IMG/VR virus record: IMGVR_UViG_3300014501_001251
Span: 1-20,083 of that record
Length of the DNA: 20,083 nt
Origin: a virus
Direction: 5' to 3' (one strand)
In this document: positions 1,684 through 18,311 of the stretch, one piece after another
Layout: every line of letters starts with the position of its first letter
How positions within the stretch are numbered: position 1 is the stretch's first letter
The notes under the pieces: generated by a model
What the model saw: only the letters and a program-made list of their open reading frames with translations
Databases searched by the model: none
Told to the model about the DNA's origin: nothing
Position numbers and translations under genes: made by a program

Positions 1684-1923
1684 ATGCCCGCAGAAGTAAG
1701 CAAAGTAAACCAATCCCAAAAGGCTACCAGTAAAGGTTGGCGAAGGCACTCCCAATATCTAGGACTGCAATCACGCATCGCGAAATCTCTGGGTATCACT
1801 CGCTCGATGGTCTGCCAGGTCATGTCCGGCGCGAAGACCTCAGCTCGTGTCTCGAAAGCCCTCGCCAAGGAAATAGACAGAATTGAACGGGTGATTGCGC
1901 GTTCTGAGGAGCGTGCGGCGTGA
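1684..1923 (+). CDS. Cro/Ner-like helix-turn-helix regulator
   Basis: This 79-residue basic protein has one helix-turn-helix at about residues 28-49 (LQSRIAKSLGITRSMVCQVM) and a helical, charged C-terminus. It is the first rightward gene beyond the operator, which is the position of cro in lambdoid phages and ner in Mu. It probably binds the same palindrome and turns down the repressor promoter. No clear ribosome binding site precedes the ATG at 1684, so the message may be leaderless or the true start may lie slightly downstream. Its stop overlaps the GTG start of the next gene (GTGA), suggesting coupled translation. The exact family is not certain. Confidence 0.75.
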   Translation: MPAEVSKVNQSQKATSKGWRRHSQYLGLQSRIAKSLGITRSMVCQVMSGAKTSARVSKALAKEIDRIERVIARSEERAA

Positions 1924-2411
1924 GTTCATTTCCGAAGAATGCAAGCCAAAACGCCCCCGCGTCTACGGCGAAGAGTGAACAATCTTTTACCCTAGTTCGG
2001 CAACTCCCCCTTGAGATGGACCGACAGATGTTCCAGCCGGGCAGCTTGAATGACGCCCATCTCGTCCGCGCCGTGCTTACGGAAGTAATCAGGGCCTGCG
2101 GGAAATCCAGGGCAACAATCTGTGAGGAGATGACTTACCTCTCAGGACAAGAAGTAACGGAACGCAGACTCAATGGATTTACCGCCGAATCGAAGGAAGA
2201 CTTCCGCTGGCCGGCCGAACTGGATCGGGCGTTCTGCACCGTCACTGGCGACACAAGGCTGCTTACCTGCCGCGTCGAACTTCACGGACTCCACGTTATT
2301 ACCGCCGATGAGATGGAGTTGCTTGAGTTAGGCCGTGCCTTCCTGAAACGTACCCAGTCTGAGGACCAGATCGCGCTGCTGCAGCGCCGCTTGCACGGGA
2401 GGTCGCTATGA
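1920..2411 (+). CDS. Early transposable-phage protein, paralogue of the next gene
   Basis: The start is GTG at 1920, overlapping the Cro-like stop, with GAGGAG about 7 bp upstream. The 163-residue protein has a disordered N-terminus (1-42) and a domain at 43-157 clearly homologous to residues 69-185 of the next protein. Shared features are the LNDAHL/FNDAYL start, GKSRA, an EEMTYL/DEMSYL helix, TERRLNGF.AES, TGD.R.LTC and a C-terminal amphipathic helix. The GKSRA-to-NGF section resembles a helix-turn-helix. From memory, similar proteins occur between ner and the transposase gene in B3-like transposable phages. The function is unknown; DNA binding is likely. Confidence 0.7.
   Translation: MSSFPKNASQNAPASTAKSEQSFTLVRQLPLEMDRQMFQPGSLNDAHLVRAVLTEVIRACGKSRATICEEMTYLSGQEVTERRLNGFTAESKEDFRWPAELDRAFCTVTGDTRLLTCRVELHGLHVITADEMELLELGRAFLKRTQSEDQIALLQRRLHGRSL
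1988..1995. promoter_or_regulatory. Possible operator half-site
   Basis: TACCCTAG matches one arm of the 1654-1675 palindrome exactly. It lies about 320 bp downstream, inside the first codons of the early gene at 1920. A lone 8-mer can occur by chance, so this is only a candidate secondary site. Confidence 0.2.
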
Positions 2412-2977
2412 GCACCTGGCTAACCCTCAACGAATATCTCGATGCGAGCGGCGTGTCGCGGCGCAACTTTTTTTATAAACGTGCATCGATCCAATCGAAG
2501 AAAATCAACGGCATCCTCAAGTTCAGCGCTGACTCGCTCACCGACGAGCAGCGCGCCAAGTTGGAGGAGTCGCGCAAACAGAGTGAGACCGCGATGTCCG
2601 CGTCGGCCAGTTTCAACGATGCCTATCTGATTCGACAGGTAATCCATGACGCGATGGCGCAATCGGGAAAAAGCCGCGCCCAGCTAGCCGATGAGATGTC
2701 CTACCTTCTCGGCTCTGTGGTAACTGAAAGAAGACTGAACGGGTTTGCAGCCGAATCCCGCGAGGATCTCCTCTTTCCCGCGCAGTACGCCCGCGCCATG
2801 GCCGAGGTGACAGGTGACAACCGCATCCTCACCTGCCTTGTAGAGAAGGCCGGGTTCCGAGTGATCACAGATGCCGAAGGTCTTGTGCTTGATCTAGGTC
2901 GGCAGGTGCTCGAAAAAGAACGCGCCGAAGTTGAGATTGCCAGCCTCAAGCAGCAACTGCAGGAGGGAACGCGATGA
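2408..2977 (+). CDS. Early protein joining a MuA-type N-terminal domain to the paralogous early domain
   Basis: The ATG overlaps the previous stop (ATGA) and follows GGGAGG. The 189-residue protein is a two-part fusion. Residues 1-55 match the first 55 residues of the transposase encoded at 3498: both start MSTWLTL.EYL and share GILKFSADSL and EQRAKL. This is the winged-helix type that in MuA binds the internal enhancer. Residues 69-185 match the previous gene product (FNDAYL, GKSRAQLADEM, TERRLNGF). The last helix looks coiled (LEKERAEVEIASLKQQL). Sharing a DNA-binding domain with the transposase suggests competition for the same enhancer-like sites, as the Mu repressor does with MuA. That role is inferred. 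Confidence 0.75.
   Translation: MSTWLTLNEYLDASGVSRRNFFYKRASIQSKKINGILKFSADSLTDEQRAKLEESRKQSETAMSASASFNDAYLIRQVIHDAMAQSGKSRAQLADEMSYLLGSVVTERRLNGFAAESREDLLFPAQYARAMAEVTGDNRILTCLVEKAGFRVITDAEGLVLDLGRQVLEKERAEVEIASLKQQLQEGTR
2510..2538 (+). repeat. 29-bp identical segment shared with the transposase gene
   Basis: Positions 2510-2538 are identical to 3606-3634. Both encode GILKFSADSL in the N-terminal domains of the two genes. The surrounding sequence is diverged, so the domain was copied and this core was either strongly conserved or recently converted. Confidence 0.85.
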
Positions 2978-3501
2978 GCACTCAACCCACGAGGTTCAGC
3001 CAGGCCCAGGTATTGATCGCAGCCCTCTTCGCCGTGGTGCTAACCGGCGAGATGCCTGAATCAACGTTGCCAATGAAAGGAGAGATACGGACGCTCGAAG
3101 ACGAGTTCGGTGACCTTCTCATCATCAGCGCGAGGCAGGTGAGGGCTCGTCTCGCGAGGGCATCGATACTCTGGATCTCCGACGAGCCGTGGAAGAGCGA
3201 AGGGAAATGCCATCTGTGCAGACTTCTCTGCCGTATCCCGCTGATGCCCTCCACCGTGGCGCAAAAAGTTGCTGACGCGCTGAGCGAACGATGCAACTCC
3301 CACACCCCTGAGGAGTGGCTGAAGCTGAAGGTGAGTCTCCGTCTCCATAAAGGAGTTGCCACTTCCGTAGCTTGCCAGTTTGGAGTCGATCCAGCGCTTG
3401 TTCCGAAGTGCTGGGAGATGCCCGAAGAGCTAGACGAGGCATGGCATCTGTGCCGGGCAGAGCTACAGAAAATCCGCGCCGAGCGTGGGGGTGTGGCATG
3501 A
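2974..3501 (+). CDS. Unknown early protein
   Basis: This 175-residue protein is not recognised. The ATG overlaps the previous stop (ATGA) and follows a strong AGGAGGG site. The N-terminus has a short hydrophobic stretch (about 11-24) that is too weak to call a membrane segment. C79, C82 and C86 form a C-x2-C-x3-C cluster, with further cysteines at 107, 134, 146 and 160. The rest is helical and charged. Its stop overlaps the ATG of the transposase gene, so it is translated with the transposition genes. In Mu this interval carries no comparable gene. A regulatory or accessory role in transposition is possible but not shown. Confidence 0.6.
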   Translation: MSTQPTRFSQAQVLIAALFAVVLTGEMPESTLPMKGEIRTLEDEFGDLLIISARQVRARLARASILWISDEPWKSEGKCHLCRLLCRIPLMPSTVAQKVADALSERCNSHTPEEWLKLKVSLRLHKGVATSVACQFGVDPALVPKCWEMPEELDEAWHLCRAELQKIRAERGGVA

Positions 3502-5516
3502 GCACCTGGCTCACACTCGCCGAGTACCTCGCCGCCGCCGAGATCTGCCGCGCGACCTTCTTCAATCGCCGTAGCAAAGGGGAGATCGAATCGAAAAAGA
3601 TCGGCGGCATCCTCAAGTTCAGCGCTGACTCGCTTACCCCCGAGCAACGCGCCAAGCTGGACAACCAGAACACACCTGCATCGCCGAAGACTAACGCCGC
3701 CTTGGCCCCTCTCTTCGCCGAAACCGATCTGGCTGTCCGCATCACCCTTACCCCCGACGCCCAGAAACAGGCCGAAGAGCGGCTCTCCATGATTCAGCCG
3801 CTGCTGGACTTCGCCGCCGATCCCGCAGGCCGCTCCCGCTTCGCCCAGTTGAGATTGAAAGACGGCCGCGCCGTCACCACCGCCGATCTGCTGGCAAGCT
3901 ATCTCGCCGAGCTGCACTCGCAGGGCGCCGGTAAGATCAGCCGCGCCACCCTCTGGAACTGGAAGAAAAAATATGCCGCCGGCGGCCTCAACGCGCTGGC
4001 CCGCGAGGTCCGCGCCGACAAGGGCTCGTCCAAGTTCTTCACCCGCTACCCGGATGCCGGAAAGCTGGTCGCTGCGGTTTGGCTGAAGCCCTTTCAATCC
4101 GCCTATTCGGCCTATACCAATCTGCTCCGCGAAGCTCCTCTCTGCGGCATCCCGCCCAACGATCTGCCCAGCTATGAGACCGTGCGCACCTATCTCGAAA
4201 GCATTCCCAAGCCGATCGCCGTGCTCGCCCGCCAGGGGGAGCGTTCCTATTCGGAGCGGATGACGCCATACCTGCAGCGAGGCTATACCGACATCGGGGC
4301 CAACAGTTTGTGGGTGGCAGACCATTGCATACACGATACCGAGGTTCGCAATGATTGCTTCGAAGGCATCGCGCCCAACGCTCCCATGCGGCTGCGCTTC
4401 TCCGCGTTCCTCGATATGCGCAGCAGGAAATTCGTCGGCTACTGCTTTGCACCGGAGGGCAACAGCCGCGTCATCACCACGGCTCTAAGACGTGGAATTG
4501 AGCGCTACGGCCCACCCGAAATTGTCTATTGCGATAACGGGGCCGACTATAAAAAAGTAGCGAAGCACGCCCGGCCCGCCACGCAGGAGTGGCGCGAGCA
4601 AGAGTACGAGGCGCTGGCGAAGACGGGCGTCCTGCAGCGTCTGGGAATCTCCGTCCAATTTTGTCTCAAATATCACCCGCAGTCCAAGCTCATCGAGCGC
4701 GCCTTCCGCACCCTGCATCAGAAGTTCGACGCGCTCTTCCCCCATTACCTAAGCGGCAGCGCCTACACCCGTCCCGATCAGACCACCATCGCGATGGGGA
4801 TGCATCGCAAGCTGCTGAAGATGGGCCGGGGTGCGGAGTCGCCTCTGATTCCCGCCAGCCTCTTTATCCGCATGGCGACAACGTGGGTCGAAGAAGATTA
4901 CAACGCGATGCACCACCACCGCGGCCAGGGCATGGAGGGCTGCACGCCCGACGAAGTCTTCAACCAGCTTTATCCGCTCGCCGAGCGCCGGACCGCCGAT
5001 CCCGCCATCCTGTCGCAGCTGCTCTTCGAGAGCCAGACCCGCCGTGTCCGCGAGTGCGCCATCACCCTCCATGGACGCCGCTACACGCCGGCGAACCCCG
5101 AGTCCAGCGCCGTCCTGCACCTCGCCAACGAGACCGAGGTCCTGATCTGCTACGACCCGCATGATCTCGACCAGGCCGTGATCGCCGATCTCGACGGCCG
5201 CCGCATCGCCGAGGTCCGCGCCGAGGTCCTCGTTCCCCACTCGGCCGACGCGCAGCCGGCCATCGCCGCCAGCATGAAGGAGCGCAGGCGCCTGCGCAAC
5301 GCCACCGTCTCCACCGTCCGCCAGATCCACCACAGCGTCGCCATGCTCGGCCACAAGAGCGACCTGGAGCTGCTCCACGAACGCTCCACGCTGCCCGCCG
5401 CCGTCGGCGACTCCATCGTCCATCGTCTCTCCGCTCCACCCACTCCAGAGCAAGGGACCAGTTCGCCCCGCTATGCCCACGATATTGCCAACCAGTTTTT
5501 CGCTGAGGAGAACTAA
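3498..5516 (+). CDS. MuA-type DDE transposase
   Basis: The start is placed at ATG 3498, overlapping the previous stop (ATGA), because MSTWLTL matches the start of the 2408 gene product; an earlier in-frame ATG at 3372 lies inside the upstream gene. The protein has 672 residues, close to MuA. Residues 1-55 resemble the MuA enhancer-binding winged helix, including SADSLTPEQRAKL. Residues 140-175 contain a second helix-turn-helix (ISRATLWNWKKKY). The integrase-fold core runs from about 265 to 420, with D275 (WVADH), D346 (VYCDNGAD) and E400 (LIERAF) as the DDE triad. Residues 515-585 fit the Mu transposase C-terminal beta-barrel. It should cut and join the element ends with the MuB-like ATPase immediately downstream. 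Confidence 0.95.
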   Translation: MSTWLTLAEYLAAAEICRATFFNRRSKGEIESKKIGGILKFSADSLTPEQRAKLDNQNTPASPKTNAALAPLFAETDLAVRITLTPDAQKQAEERLSMIQPLLDFAADPAGRSRFAQLRLKDGRAVTTADLLASYLAELHSQGAGKISRATLWNWKKKYAAGGLNALAREVRADKGSSKFFTRYPDAGKLVAAVWLKPFQSAYSAYTNLLREAPLCGIPPNDLPSYETVRTYLESIPKPIAVLARQGERSYSERMTPYLQRGYTDIGANSLWVADHCIHDTEVRNDCFEGIAPNAPMRLRFSAFLDMRSRKFVGYCFAPEGNSRVITTALRRGIERYGPPEIVYCDNGADYKKVAKHARPATQEWREQEYEALAKTGVLQRLGISVQFCLKYHPQSKLIERAFRTLHQKFDALFPHYLSGSAYTRPDQTTIAMGMHRKLLKMGRGAESPLIPASLFIRMATTWVEEDYNAMHHHRGQGMEGCTPDEVFNQLYPLAERRTADPAILSQLLFESQTRRVRECAITLHGRRYTPANPESSAVLHLANETEVLICYDPHDLDQAVIADLDGRRIAEVRAEVLVPHSADAQPAIAASMKERRRLRNATVSTVRQIHHSVAMLGHKSDLELLHERSTLPAAVGDSIVHRLSAPPTPEQGTSSPRYAHDIANQFFAEEN

Positions 5517-6533
5517 ATGCCCTTCAACACCACCATCGCCGAACGCCGGGACGCCATCCAGCAGGCCCCGTCCTCCGAGGCGCTCGCTGAGGAGTTGAGG
5601 AACTATCTGGAGGCCGCGCACCTCAGCGTCCCCATCTTCGCGGCCTACATCAACTACTCCCACGTCACCATCCGGGCCTTCCTCTCCAACCGCTACTGGA
5701 AGGTGGGCGGCTCCGACAAGAACATCAAGAAGGCGGTCCGTGCGTTCCTCGACGCGAACCCGATCCTGGCCACGCCGGAGAACCAGGGCAGGTTCTACCA
5801 GACGGAGAACGTCGCCACTCTGCAGAAGTGGTTCGCACATTGCCTCGCGATCGAGAGCGGCCGCGGCCGCATGGTCGCCGTCTACTCCGGCCCCGGCGGA
5901 CAGAAGACCTTCATCAGCGAGAACCTGGTCGCCCGCTTCAACCAGGACAACATCGCCAACCCCGACCGTCCGCGCGCCTTCCACCTCTACTGTAGCCAGG
6001 ACATCACGCCCGGCCAGCTCGTCATCAAGATCATGCACACCGCCGGCATCGCCAACTCCGGCGTCCTGCAGAAGAACCTCGCCGCGCTCCGCTACAGCCT
6101 GCGCAACCGCCGCGTGCTCTTTATCTTCGACGAGGCCCAGCACCTCAGCATCCCGTGCCTGGAAATTATCCGCGAGCTCAACGACCTGCGTCCCTACTTC
6201 GGCGTGATGCTGCTGGGCAGCCACAAGCTCCGCCTGCTCTTTGACCAGCGCGCCGCCGAGATGGAGCAGTGGAACTCCCGCCTCACTGCCTCGATCGAGC
6301 TGCCCGGCATCGGCCTGGAGTGCGCCCGCCACATCCTCCTGGAGGAGCTGTCCGAGCTGGCCGCCGTCACCCCGCTCTCCGATCGCAGGATCGACACCCT
6401 GCTCAAGAGCTGCTACGCCGACGACATCTACAGCCGCGAGAAAAAGACCTACCTCTCGGCCCGCCGCCTTTTCCGTTCCATCGAAAAAATCAAAGAAGAC
6501 GCAGCCAAATCGCTTTCCGGAGGAATTCAGTGA
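5517..6533 (+). CDS. MuB-like AAA+ transposition ATPase
   Basis: The ATG directly follows the transposase stop. The 338-residue protein has an N-terminal helical region (1-85) with a possible helix-turn-helix at 35-60, then an AAA ATPase domain from about 115 to 330. Walker B is clear: VLFIFDEAQHL, D205 and E206. The P-loop at 124-131 reads SGPGGQKT, so K130 and T131 are present but the first and last glycines of the usual motif are S124 and Q129. The LLGSHKL segment at 232-238 fits a sensor region. MuB-type proteins bind target DNA, deliver it to MuA and provide target immunity. Compared with MuB the family is certain, but nucleotide binding may be altered. Confidence 0.9.
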   Translation: MPFNTTIAERRDAIQQAPSSEALAEELRNYLEAAHLSVPIFAAYINYSHVTIRAFLSNRYWKVGGSDKNIKKAVRAFLDANPILATPENQGRFYQTENVATLQKWFAHCLAIESGRGRMVAVYSGPGGQKTFISENLVARFNQDNIANPDRPRAFHLYCSQDITPGQLVIKIMHTAGIANSGVLQKNLAALRYSLRNRRVLFIFDEAQHLSIPCLEIIRELNDLRPYFGVMLLGSHKLRLLFDQRAAEMEQWNSRLTASIELPGIGLECARHILLEELSELAAVTPLSDRRIDTLLKSCYADDIYSREKKTYLSARRLFRSIEKIKEDAAKSLSGGIQ

Positions 6534-9578: not shown

Positions 9579-9827
9579 ATGACTCTCTCCAAGTCCAAAT
9601 CCGTACTGATCCTTCTGCTCACGCTTGCGGCGTCGGGATGCGCCGGCAAAGCGCCGGTCATCGTGACGACGACGACCAAGCCGTGCGTTCTGCTCTCCTC
9701 CACACCAGGCCCCGACGGAGTCACCTTCGTCTTTCAGTGTCCGGGCGTCCCCGATATCACCATCACTGAATCCAACGACTGGGTTCCGGCAGTCAGAAGC
9801 TCGCATCCTCCAAGGAACCCACAATGA
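9579..9827 (+). CDS. Small lipoprotein
   Basis: The first 21 residues are a lipoprotein signal: two lysines, the hydrophobic LILLLTLA, and a lipobox ending ASGC with C21 as the lipidated cysteine. The mature part is about 62 residues, Thr/Val-rich, with two further cysteines (C36 and C54) that could form a disulphide in the periplasm. The ATG of the large fibre gene overlaps its stop (ATGA), so the two are coupled. It could anchor or escort the fibre, or be an Rz1-like spanin remnant; no partner Rz gene is present. Confidence 0.7.
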
Positions 9828-12691
9828 AAAAGCAAACCCTCGTCCTCGCCGCGCTCCTCTTCGCCGCCACCGGCCTGCACGCGCAGTACACCCAGATCAC
9901 GGCGAGCCACCTCTACATGGGTGGTGTGCTCATCGCGAACGGCACCATGCTGGCGACGCCGGTGAACGCGCAAGGCTCTCCCATCCCGTTCACCCAGAGC
10001 GGTGGCGGCCTCAACTCGCCGACAGCCTTCCACTGTCCCATCACCAACGGGACCCTCACCGGCTGCCTCGTCCCCGACTCCGCCCTGACGATGCCGGTAG
10101 GCATTCTCTACACCTTCCAGATCACCTCCTCTCTGGGACTGACCTACCTCATGAAGTCGGTGCCCAACGTCACCGGCCCCGTCTGGGCGCTCGATACCTA
10201 CGCTCCGGCGGCGTCGACCACCATCGTCCAAACCGTCCTTGTGGGCTATGGAACGGCAGCGCCGCCCAACCCCTGCGCCGCGTCTCTGCTCTACATCCGC
10301 GACTTCGCCGGCGGCCAACTCTATATCTGCGTCGCCGGCGTTCCTGTCCTGGTCACTGGGAGCGGCGGATCGTCGATCGCGTGGCTGGGCGCGTGGAGCA
10401 GCACCACCGCCTATGTCTTCGGCGACGCTGTGAGTTATCTGGGCTCGTCCTACGTCGCACTGTTGTCGAACACCGATGTTGTTCCGGTAAGCGGGGCGAC
10501 CTGGCAGCTACTGGCGCAGGTGGGCGCAACCGGCCCTGCGGGCCCGACCGGAGCGGCAGGCAGCACCGGGCCAACCGGAGCGGCGGGAGCGACCGGAGCG
10601 ACCGGACCTGCGGGCGCGACCGGGCCGCAAGGCCCCATCGGCGTGACCGGGAACACGGGAAGCGCCGGAGCCACTGGGCCGCAAGGGGCGACGGGAGCAA
10701 CCGGACCGGCAGGGAGCACGGGAGCCGCGGGATCTGCTGCGACCGTGGCCGTCGGCACCACGACCACCGGAGCGGCGGGATCTTCTGCAGCGGTAAGCAA
10801 CTCGGGAAGCGCAAGTGCCGCTGTTCTGAACTTCACCGTGCCGCAAGGCGTAGCGGGAGCCACTGGGCCAACCGGGCCAACCGGCCCGACCGGTGCGGCC
10901 GGAGGATCGACGACCTGGCTGGGCGCGTGGAGCAGCTCCACCAGCTACGTGCTCGACAACGCAGTGAGCTATCTCGGATCGTCCTACATCGCCGTCGCCT
11001 CCAGCACCAACGTTGTTCCCGGAACCAACGGCGCGGATTGGCAACTGCTCGCGCAGGCCGGTGCAGCTGGTGCAACGGGCGCGACGGGAAGCGCTGGAGC
11101 CACGGGCAGCACAGGCCCAACTGGACCGGCAGGCAGCACGGGCGCAACCGGACCGGCCGGATCGACCGGCGCAACAGGCCCGACGGGGCCAACCGGGGCG
11201 ACAGGCGCCGCTGGCTCATCGATCGTCTGGATCGGCGCGTGGAGCAGTTCGGCGGCCTACGTCATCAATGATGCTGTCAGCTATCTCGGCTCGTCCTTTG
11301 TCTCCCTGGATTCGAACACCAACGTGACGCCTCCGAGCGACGCGACGCAATGGCAGCTTCTCGCGCAAGTGGGAGCGACAGGAGCCACCGGATCCGCTGG
11401 GGCGACGGGAAGCGCTGGAGCCACGGGCAGCACGGGGCCAACTGGGCCAACCGGAGCGGCGGGAGCAACCGGCGCGACGGGATCCGCCGGAGCGGCGGCG
11501 ACGATCGCGGCCGGCACGGCAACGGGTCTCGCCGCCGGAGCATCGCCGACGGTGAGCAATGGCGGCACGTCGAGCGCGGCTGTCTTCAACTTCGGCATCC
11601 CCGCCGGAGCGACAGGGGCCACGGGGGCGACGGGCAGCGCCGGAAGCACCGGGGCCACCGGACCGACCGGAGCGACAGGGCCAACCGGCCCGGCCGGTTC
11701 CTCGGCCACTGCGCCCTACATCGCCGGAGCGGGCTCAGTCAACGTGATGACGGCGACCTTCTCGCCCGCGCTAACTTCCTTGTTCGCCGGCGAGGAAGTC
11801 TTCGTGTTGCCCAACCTGGCCAACACCACCACCACGCCGACGCTGAACGCGAACGGACTGGGCGCGAAGACCATCACCAAGCTGGGCACAGCGGCGCTGG
11901 CGGCGGGCGACTACACCACCACCGCCATCGCGGACTTCATCTACGACGGCACCTACTGGGAGCTGCAGAACCCGCTAGGTCTGCCCGTAGCGAATGGTGG
12001 CACGGGCAGGTCTGTCACGGTGGCCTATGCGCCGGTGGTGGGCGGCACGTCGACAACCGGCCCGATGCAGAGCATGGCGGTTGGCACAGCGAAGCAGATT
12101 TATGTGAGCGGGGGTCCGGCAGCCGTCGGCGGTCCAGTGGACTTCCCTGAGCACCTGGTTATTCCCGCGGCAAATTGCAACAGCACGACAGCGGGCGCAG
12201 GGTGGTCGATTGGTGCGAGCGGCGTGGTGACCTGCCGCGCCGGCACCAACAACCTCGGCGGCTATATCGCGATCACGGATACGTCTTCCAGTTTTGCGCA
12301 GTTCTATGTGCAACTGCCGGAGGACTGGGACACCGCGACGCTGCCGTATATCCGCTTCCAGTTCGCCTACCCCGGCACCGACGGGTCGTCGTCCCACACC
12401 ATCATCCCGGCGGTGAAGGTCTCCTGCATCAAGGGCGACGGCAGCACGACGGACGATGTGACCTTCGCCGCCTCGCACTCATCGAGCACGGTCACGCTCA
12501 GCTCGGCGACGGCGAACCTGTTCTTCGACAGCTCCAACGTGCAGCTCAACTCGACCGACATGACCGGCTGCGTGGCGGGCTCGGGAATGATCGTGCAGGT
12601 AGGCCGTGCGACGGATACAGCGACCAGCGCCGTCAACTTCTACTCCGCAACGATCACGATTCCACGGTTGATCACCGTGCAGGCGAACTAA
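9824..12691 (+). CDS. Secreted collagen-like, tail-fibre-type surface protein
   Basis: This 955-residue protein begins with a Sec signal peptide (MKK, hydrophobic 6-16, cleavage after LHA at about 20). Residues 22-175 are an N-terminal domain shared with the 15591 gene product (VPNVTGP..ALDTY.P). Three Trp-rich modules follow at 187-231, 365-410 and 469-514, each of the form [18 protein letters not shown]...WQLLAQ, resembling CBM5/12-type binding modules. They alternate with collagen-like G-x-T/G-x-x runs. Two beta segments (about 305-342 and 558-595), with AVLNF and AVFNF, and the VANGGTG motif near 725 are typical of phage tail fibres. The C-terminal domain is probably the tip. It is most likely exported and trimeric; the ligand is unknown. 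Confidence 0.85.
10382..11698 (+). repeat. Three Trp-rich modules alternating with collagen-like codon repeats
   Basis: Module copies lie at 10382-10516, 10916-11053 and 11228-11365. All three share an exact 14-mer, GGCGCGTGGAGCAG, at 10388, 10922 and 11234. Between and after them lie GGN-NCN-ACN triplet runs encoding Gly-x-Thr repeats up to 11698. The repetition makes the locus prone to slippage and recombination, so module number may vary between strains. Confidence 0.85.
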
Positions 12692-17945: not shown

Positions 17946-18311
17946 TTTTCGCCCGCGCCACGAGGGATCTGCTATGGTTTTCCGTATCATCCTAAATTGG
18001 CGATTTCACCCGCGTAGTGCAACCCTTCGATGCCCCTCAACCCCGCGTGAATAAAGGATTTTGTGGAATGGGGGAGAGTGATGAAAGTCCAACCAGTCTA
18101 ATTTGCACTAATTGCACTTGTTGAAACGGAAACCCTGAAACGGAAATCAATAACTTAGCGGCGCGGTTTTGCACTTTTGCACTGGCACTCTAATTTATCT
18201 CCTGTAGCCGTCTCAGTCGCCAAATCGAGCTTTTGACCTCAAAATAGCCCCAAATCCCGCGAATTCCCGCCTCCGCCCGCCGTTTCCCGTCACTCCAGTT
18301 TATCTCCTGTA
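17946..18311. other. Non-coding, repeat-rich candidate right end of the element
   Basis: No convincing gene occurs here. TTGCACT occurs at 18103, 18112, 18169 and 18177 and once inverted at 18016-18022. TGAAACGGAAA occurs at 18122-18132 and 18136-18146. A 21-bp repeat (19 of 21 identical, core TTTATCTCCTGTA) occurs at 18186-18206 and 18291-18311. Clustered direct repeats of this kind are expected at Mu-type ends, where several transposase monomers bind, and Mu end sites also contain TTTATC. Base composition is lower in GC than in the flanking genes. The exact cut point (a terminal CA) cannot be fixed without the left end. No terminator with a T-run was seen after the fibre gene. Confidence 0.5.
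18186..18311 (+). repeat. Pair of 21-bp direct repeats, candidate transposase-binding sites
   Basis: Copies at 18186-18206 and 18291-18311 read CACTC, three variable bases, then TTTATCTCCTGTA. They are in the same orientation, 105 bp apart, with two mismatches. They lie at the transition from element to chromosomal flank, where Mu carries its R1-R3 sites. Confidence 0.55.

Follow-up and report, generated by a model that had tools for sequence, protein, structure and literature searches.

A copy of the transposase head on a second ORF3-family protein in the early region of a D3112-type transposable phage

The window analysed here, the whole 20,083-bp linear IMG/VR record IMGVR_UViG_3300014501_001251, was identified from its sequence as belonging to a transposable phage of the D3112 type, whose early region lies in the left part. 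The open reading frame (ORF) at 2408–2977 (+) of this region was intact and encoded a fusion protein of 189 residues, the 2408 protein, composed of a MuA-I-alpha-type head and an ORF3-family body. Its origin and architecture were well supported by the comparisons below, which showed that, the exact event aside, the protein was derived from the head of the transposase and a second copy of ORF3. With regard to its role, we tentatively favor modulation of transpososome assembly in trans, probably as a damper, with a link to the ORF3 circuit.

Residues 1–66 of the 2408 protein were aligned with residues 1–68 of the MuA-type transposase A (3498–5516, +) with an identity of 56% (E 6e-20), and residues 63–185 with the first ORF3-family regulator, the 1920 protein (1920–2411, +), with an identity of 50% over 123 residues (E 3e-40). 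The head (residues 1–55; 2408–2572, +), a predicted winged-helix copy of the transposase N-terminus, matched the head hidden Markov model with a value of 1e-14 and a leave-out E of 2.5e-10. The body (residues 62–188; 2591–2971, +) belonged to the ORF3 family. When profiles built without any window sequence were compared with all window ORFs, the head profile matched only the 2408 protein and the transposase, and the ORF3 profile matched only the 1920 and 2408 proteins; neither profile matched the S24-type repressor or the Ner-like protein. These results bore out an earlier note, made from the sequence alone, in which the 2408 protein was described as a MuA-type N-terminal domain joined to a domain duplicated in the 1920 protein. 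Besides these two parts, no further module, such as an I-beta-gamma-type end-binding domain, was found in the 2408 protein.

The head was assigned to the winged-helix type of MuA I-alpha and the Mu repressor with good but not overwhelming support from sequence profiles and modeling. A profile search of 177,635 PDB sequences, with 18 heads taken from the window and from related transposases, ranked MuA (PDB code 1tns) first (E 1.1e-4), with the match lying in MuA residues 1–76, and the Mu repressor (PDB code 1g4d) second (E 0.57). The AlphaFold2 model of the head, calculated with 54 heads, had a helix-helix-hairpin-helix arrangement with a predicted local distance difference test (pLDDT) value of 78, corresponding to the winged-helix fold of 1tns and 1qpm. 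Foldseek placed the Mu repressor domain (PDB code 1qpm) at rank 1 with a probability of 0.93, although the E-value was only 0.11. VIA-align superposed the model on 1qpm with a Z of 5.8 over 60 residues and on 1tns with a Z of 5.8 over 66 residues, and the next structure was an excisionase at 4.3. The reading of the head as MuA I-alpha-type was upheld, since profile and predicted fold both ranked MuA or the Mu repressor at the top. The Pfam family PF02316 matched neither the 2408 protein nor the transposase, and its best match across the 18 heads was one head at E 0.099.

The body and the 1920 protein both matched phrog_2345 (E 3e-21 and 4.1e-25, respectively), a family annotated as transcription regulation that includes D3112 ORF3. 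The 1920 protein was 26% identical to D3112 ORF3 over 121 residues and 78% identical to the orthologue in the related locus L210, and in a tblastn search it matched 114 phage records, 113 of which were named Pseudomonas phages. The model of the whole 2408 protein, calculated with 66 sequences, had a mean pLDDT of 86.6, with values mostly of 91–98 in the body, where an XRE-like helix-turn-helix (HTH) and a long C-terminal helix were predicted. Structural comparison of the body model ranked XRE/434-type HTH proteins highest, although every E-value was weak, and a profile search of solved structures in the PDB with the ORF3 body returned only designed and unrelated proteins. The family annotation and the XRE-like body prediction favor an alternative that we consider somewhat unlikely, namely that the 2408 protein does no more than regulate transcription of the early operon; a respecified head would help the ORF3-type body to bind an operator, with no direct effect on transposition.

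The codons of the two heads bear on this alternative and on the history of the fusion. The 29-bp block reported in the earlier note as identical at 2510–2538 and 3606–3634 was confirmed; it was the exact core of two 78-nucleotide direct repeats at 2488–2565 (+) and 3584–3661 (+), which were 87% identical. Given equal amino acids, the probability of nine identical codons was 2.7e-4 under local codon use. In head codons 28–56, 17 of the 22 same-residue codons were identical (9.9 expected), as compared with 5 of 13 in codons 1–27 (5.5 expected). The ORF3-domain pair of the 1920 protein and the 2408 body was saturated, with 15 of 60 identical and 26 expected. Because codons 28–56 were over-identical and the rest saturated, the head duplication is read as old, with synonymous sites saturated outside the 29-bp patch, and the block as a patch of recent homogenization or of constraint at the DNA level. 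An old duplication with later homogenization of the 3' half of the head is a possible course of events. A recent one-step tandem duplication of the ORF3 body plus the transposase head was also considered and was unsupported, as the ORF3 pair and the first half of the head were saturated. A mosaic test against L258 was weak, with Fisher p values of 0.15 and 0.08 at fixed cuts and a permutation p of 0.04 over 48 informative sites. As a candidate conserved DNA element, the 29-bp block had no exact copy in viral contigs or in the other fetched loci (L001–L003 being the record of the window itself). The near-identity of the second half of the head, including the wing, to that of the transposase even at synonymous sites is difficult to reconcile with a head that serves transcription only, if its specificity had drifted freely, unless gene conversion occurred there by chance.

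A survey of the fusion across other transposable phages, proposed as a check in the earlier note, found it in the window only. The scan covered the window and 153 fetched loci (L107–L259, many overlapping in contig), which yielded 80 loci with unique transposase C-termini and an ORF3 upstream on the same strand, including at least two pairs of near-copies (L191/L197 and L192/L199). The head-ORF3 fusion was present in 1 of the 80. The fusion state of the window is read from these sequences as derived, because in the nearest relatives (L107, L129, and L210/L258) ORF3 abuts the transposase with no insert. Genomes matching the 2408 protein numbered 20 of 398, 16 of 399, and 5 of 396 in draws at the family, class, and phylum level, respectively, which were overlapping genome sets, and none of the matches spanned both head and body. 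As a sole query, the 2408 protein found no relatives in genome contigs or viral contigs, nor did the 1920 protein, the transposase, or the 2408 body in viral contigs, and a tblastn search of 50,697 phage records with the 2408 protein gave no match. In the titles and abstract openings listed by the literature searches made, no account was found of such a fusion or of transposable phages in which DNA-binding parts of the transposase occur as solo proteins.

The occurrence on a single contig and the long branch of the body (0.89) would fit evolutionary debris or an artefact, that is, either a fusion of recent date that has no function or a chimera made in assembly. We regard this as the least probable of the explanations considered, since the frame was intact, the ORF overlapped its neighbors in the ATGA manner, and the body kept the conserved residues of the ORF3 family. 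In addition, the fusion junction (~2565–2605) lay outside the 29-bp block, so a mis-join at the block could not have created it. Two placements of the body in the ORF3 tree, with the 1920 protein and L210 (p 0.27) or with the clade of second copies (p 0.31), were both compatible with the data, neither being rejected.

The gene order of the window was the S24 repressor (−) followed by the Ner-like gene, 1920, 2408, 2974, transposase A, and ATPase B (all +). This order was the same as that of D3112 (cI, orf2 (ner), orf3, orf4, orf5, A, and B), with the layout of a leftward repressor, ner, orf3, intervening ORFs, A, and B, and it was also found in related loci. The repressor (945–1640, −) was of the S24/LexA type with an XRE-type HTH (PF00717 1.1e-11, PF13560 3.6e-7, phrog_4 2.1e-23). 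The Ner/Cro-like regulator (1684–1923, +; phrog_1468 2.9e-4) had homologues as the first gene of the early operon in many relatives. The transposase, with an I-alpha-type head at about residues 1–57, matched phrog_310 (7.7e-87), PF09299 (1.1e-7), and PF00665 (7.5e-7), and was followed by a MuB-type AAA ATPase (5517–6533, +; phrog_296 4.6e-18, PF13401 1e-10). The early genes are taken to form one operon because the start and stop codons of neighbors overlap, for example as ATGA at 2408 and 3498.

In the proposed mechanism, a second ORF3, located in the orf3–tnpA slot, received a copy of the I-alpha-type head (residues 1–55) of the phage's own transposase as its N-terminal part. Judging by the start/stop overlaps and the gene order, the early operon would express this product along with Ner, ORF3, and transposase proteins A and B. 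The head of the product would occupy the site of the transposase I-alpha domain, or pair with the transposase there, and the ORF3 body would tie that site to the targets, partners, or regulatory circuit of ORF3. Transposition would then be delayed or limited until the transposase is in excess. The mode of action of the 2408 protein would resemble that of the Mu repressor's DNA-binding head, but the protein is not the lysogeny repressor. A damper is favored because a head with neither catalytic nor end-binding domains can fill a site and cannot build a transpososome. In Mu, the I-alpha domain binds the enhancer, as stated in passages of PMC3362531 and PMC3562280, and the homology of MuA and the repressor is named in the title of a reference within PMC3820752. 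Competition for an enhancer and a division of immunity between proteins, as suggested in the earlier note, may hold for the window.

Several observations weigh against the proposed damper or the identification of its head. The fusion was known from a single metagenomic contig, and the 2408 head alone had no Pfam match. When the profile was built from 54 heads, 1tns was still first but weaker (E 0.092), and an AlphaFold2 model of the whole protein with no head homologues in the alignment showed an all-helical head of low confidence. The recognition-helix residues differed, with SRRN in the 2408 head and CRAT in the transposase head, a difference that also favors the role restricted to transcription. 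No enhancer or target site common to the two heads was located, and the gap between repressor and ner was only 43 bp and held a perfect palindrome.

That palindrome, an 11-bp inverted repeat AGCCTAGGGTA-TT-TACCCTAGGCT at 1653–1676 beside TTGACA, is probably an operator of the repressor or of Ner. A third TACCCTAG half-site was present within the 1920 ORF (1988–1995, +), giving 3 copies of TACCCTAG in the window compared with 0.11 expected, and L132 retained the outer arms of the palindrome.

In the compared loci, the slot between ORF3 and the transposase has repeatedly taken up spare DNA-binding modules. It was empty in 31 of the 80 loci, all with headed transposases, when a gap of up to 60 nucleotides was counted from the first ORF3, and in 38 of the 80 when counted from the nearest ORF3. 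A second ORF3 copy occupied the slot in 10 loci including the window; L257 was left out because its two ORF3 hits were overlapping fragments. Seven of the nine labelled second copies formed one clade with the single copies of L107 and L152 (support 100/99). ORFs with the transposase end-binding domain alone were found at nine distinct loci. Eight lay in the slot (L120:6221-6706, L121:6629-7207, L123:8106-8765, L125:7345-8061, L126:6528-7028, L127:1519-2121, L191:5182-5682, and L200:5180-5671) and one downstream of B (L122:9319-10113). The L127 ORF overlapped ORF3 and hence was unlabelled in the classification of slot contents. Supported tree branches forced at least three changes in this trait, and thus at least three origins. 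The outlook of the earlier note proved too narrow in this respect, as many relatives carried spare DNA-binding modules of other kinds in the same slot, and the solo end-binding domains there count for the damper.

In L151 (5091-5774), the second ORF3 copy was fused to an XRE HTH (PF01381 1.3e-8) and not to a transposase head. The slot thus accepts other DNA-binding heads, which is a further point for a purely transcriptional 2408 protein.

Ner-type proteins also occupied the slot in some relatives. Transposases without an I-alpha-type head were found in 19 of the 80 loci, none of them abutting ORF3, and Ner-type ORFs were present in the slot of 7 of 18 headless loci versus 4 of 59 headed loci (77 tree rows). 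A correlation of head loss with Ner-type slot proteins was rejected, because the Fisher p of 0.002 was obtained without the tree and only 4 independent pairs remained with it, which was not significant. Such loci would suit a 2408 protein acting as a positive assembly factor, a scaffold for synapsis whose body and head would link a complex bound at an operator to the enhancer-like site of the transposase, as if the head function were supplied in trans to headless transposases. The prediction of two DNA-binding-type modules in one chain is in line with such a scaffold. We consider it quite unlikely, since the association comes down to those 4 phylogenetically independent pairs and the 31 loci with empty slots manage with no slot gene.

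The protein next to the fusion in the window (2974–3501, +), with homologues in related phages, was placed by similarity with the spare slot proteins. It had phmmer matches in L146, L174, L192, and L217, and its profile also touched multi-Ner HTH proteins (matches on proteins of L110, L111, and L178). The pattern in which the early operon houses spare DNA-binding modules of the transposase is wider and better supported than the single-contig fusion. In D3112-type phages of Acidobacteria, copies of such modules might be released in the slot to work as early proteins and adjust transposition in trans; contacts with the enhancer and the ends, which MuA makes with one chain, would thereby be divided among several proteins. 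We advance this with considerable reserve, as a possibility.

The 2408 protein was compared with known systems. Like MuA (1tns), it has the winged-helix head at its extreme N-terminus, and the transposase of the window is also MuA-type. Unlike in MuA, this head sits on a regulator with no catalytic core or end-binding domain, and its wing region is shorter than in most relatives. The Mu c repressor (1qpm and 1g4d) has the same head fold and, like the 2408 protein, is a non-transposase with a head that also occurs on the phage's own transposase. Unlike the leftward c gene, 2408 is an early-operon gene read rightward, its product has an ORF3-family body, and the lysogeny repressor here is S24-type. 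D3112 ORF3 corresponds to the 2408 body in family and in its position between ner and A, but it lacks a transposase-type head. The earlier note had also stated that the S24 repressor lacks the head and that a separate early protein carries it. This held, as the repressor did not match the head profile, whereas the suggested split does not set this phage apart, because a headless repressor and a headed transposase occur in D3112 too. The fusion is a variant, known from one contig, on the theme of a head shared with the transposase. Truncated transposases such as Tn5 Inh act as inhibitors. Tn5 Inh and the 2408 protein are alike in that an element produces part of its transposase as an independent protein; unlike Inh, the 2408 protein copies only the I-alpha-type head and is fused to another regulator. 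The solo end-binding proteins of the relatives are a closer parallel to Inh.

Other genes of the window were located on both sides of the early region. A TIR-domain protein (415–1014, −; PF13676 1.8e-12) was found beside the repressor, followed by a small, possibly membrane, protein (1–381), and the two are possibly defence or exclusion cargo. Between 6534 and 18300, no portal or terminase family match and no clear capsid hit was obtained among the ORFs tested. The only such structural candidate there was a collagen-like, CBM5/12-bearing protein of the tail-fibre type (9824–12691). It is possible that the element is a prophage with deletions or has no particle genes of its own. Two 21-nucleotide direct repeats, 90% alike, at 18186–18206 and 18291–18311 just before host-like sequence are possible transposase sites at the right end. 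The host was most likely an acidobacterium, a soil bacterium, because the protein of the right-end gene, which we take to be aminotransferase-like, was up to 83% identical to Granulicella relatives.

Mu is the standard model of how a phage restrains its transposase, and the check rests there on one head common to the repressor and the transposase. In the window it is another early regulator that has the head in common with the transposase, and the relatives free other DNA-binding parts of the transposase. If these proteins act on transposition, the modular control of Mu-type transposition would be open to study part by part, and the role of the I-alpha domain in phages with an unrelated repressor would become testable.

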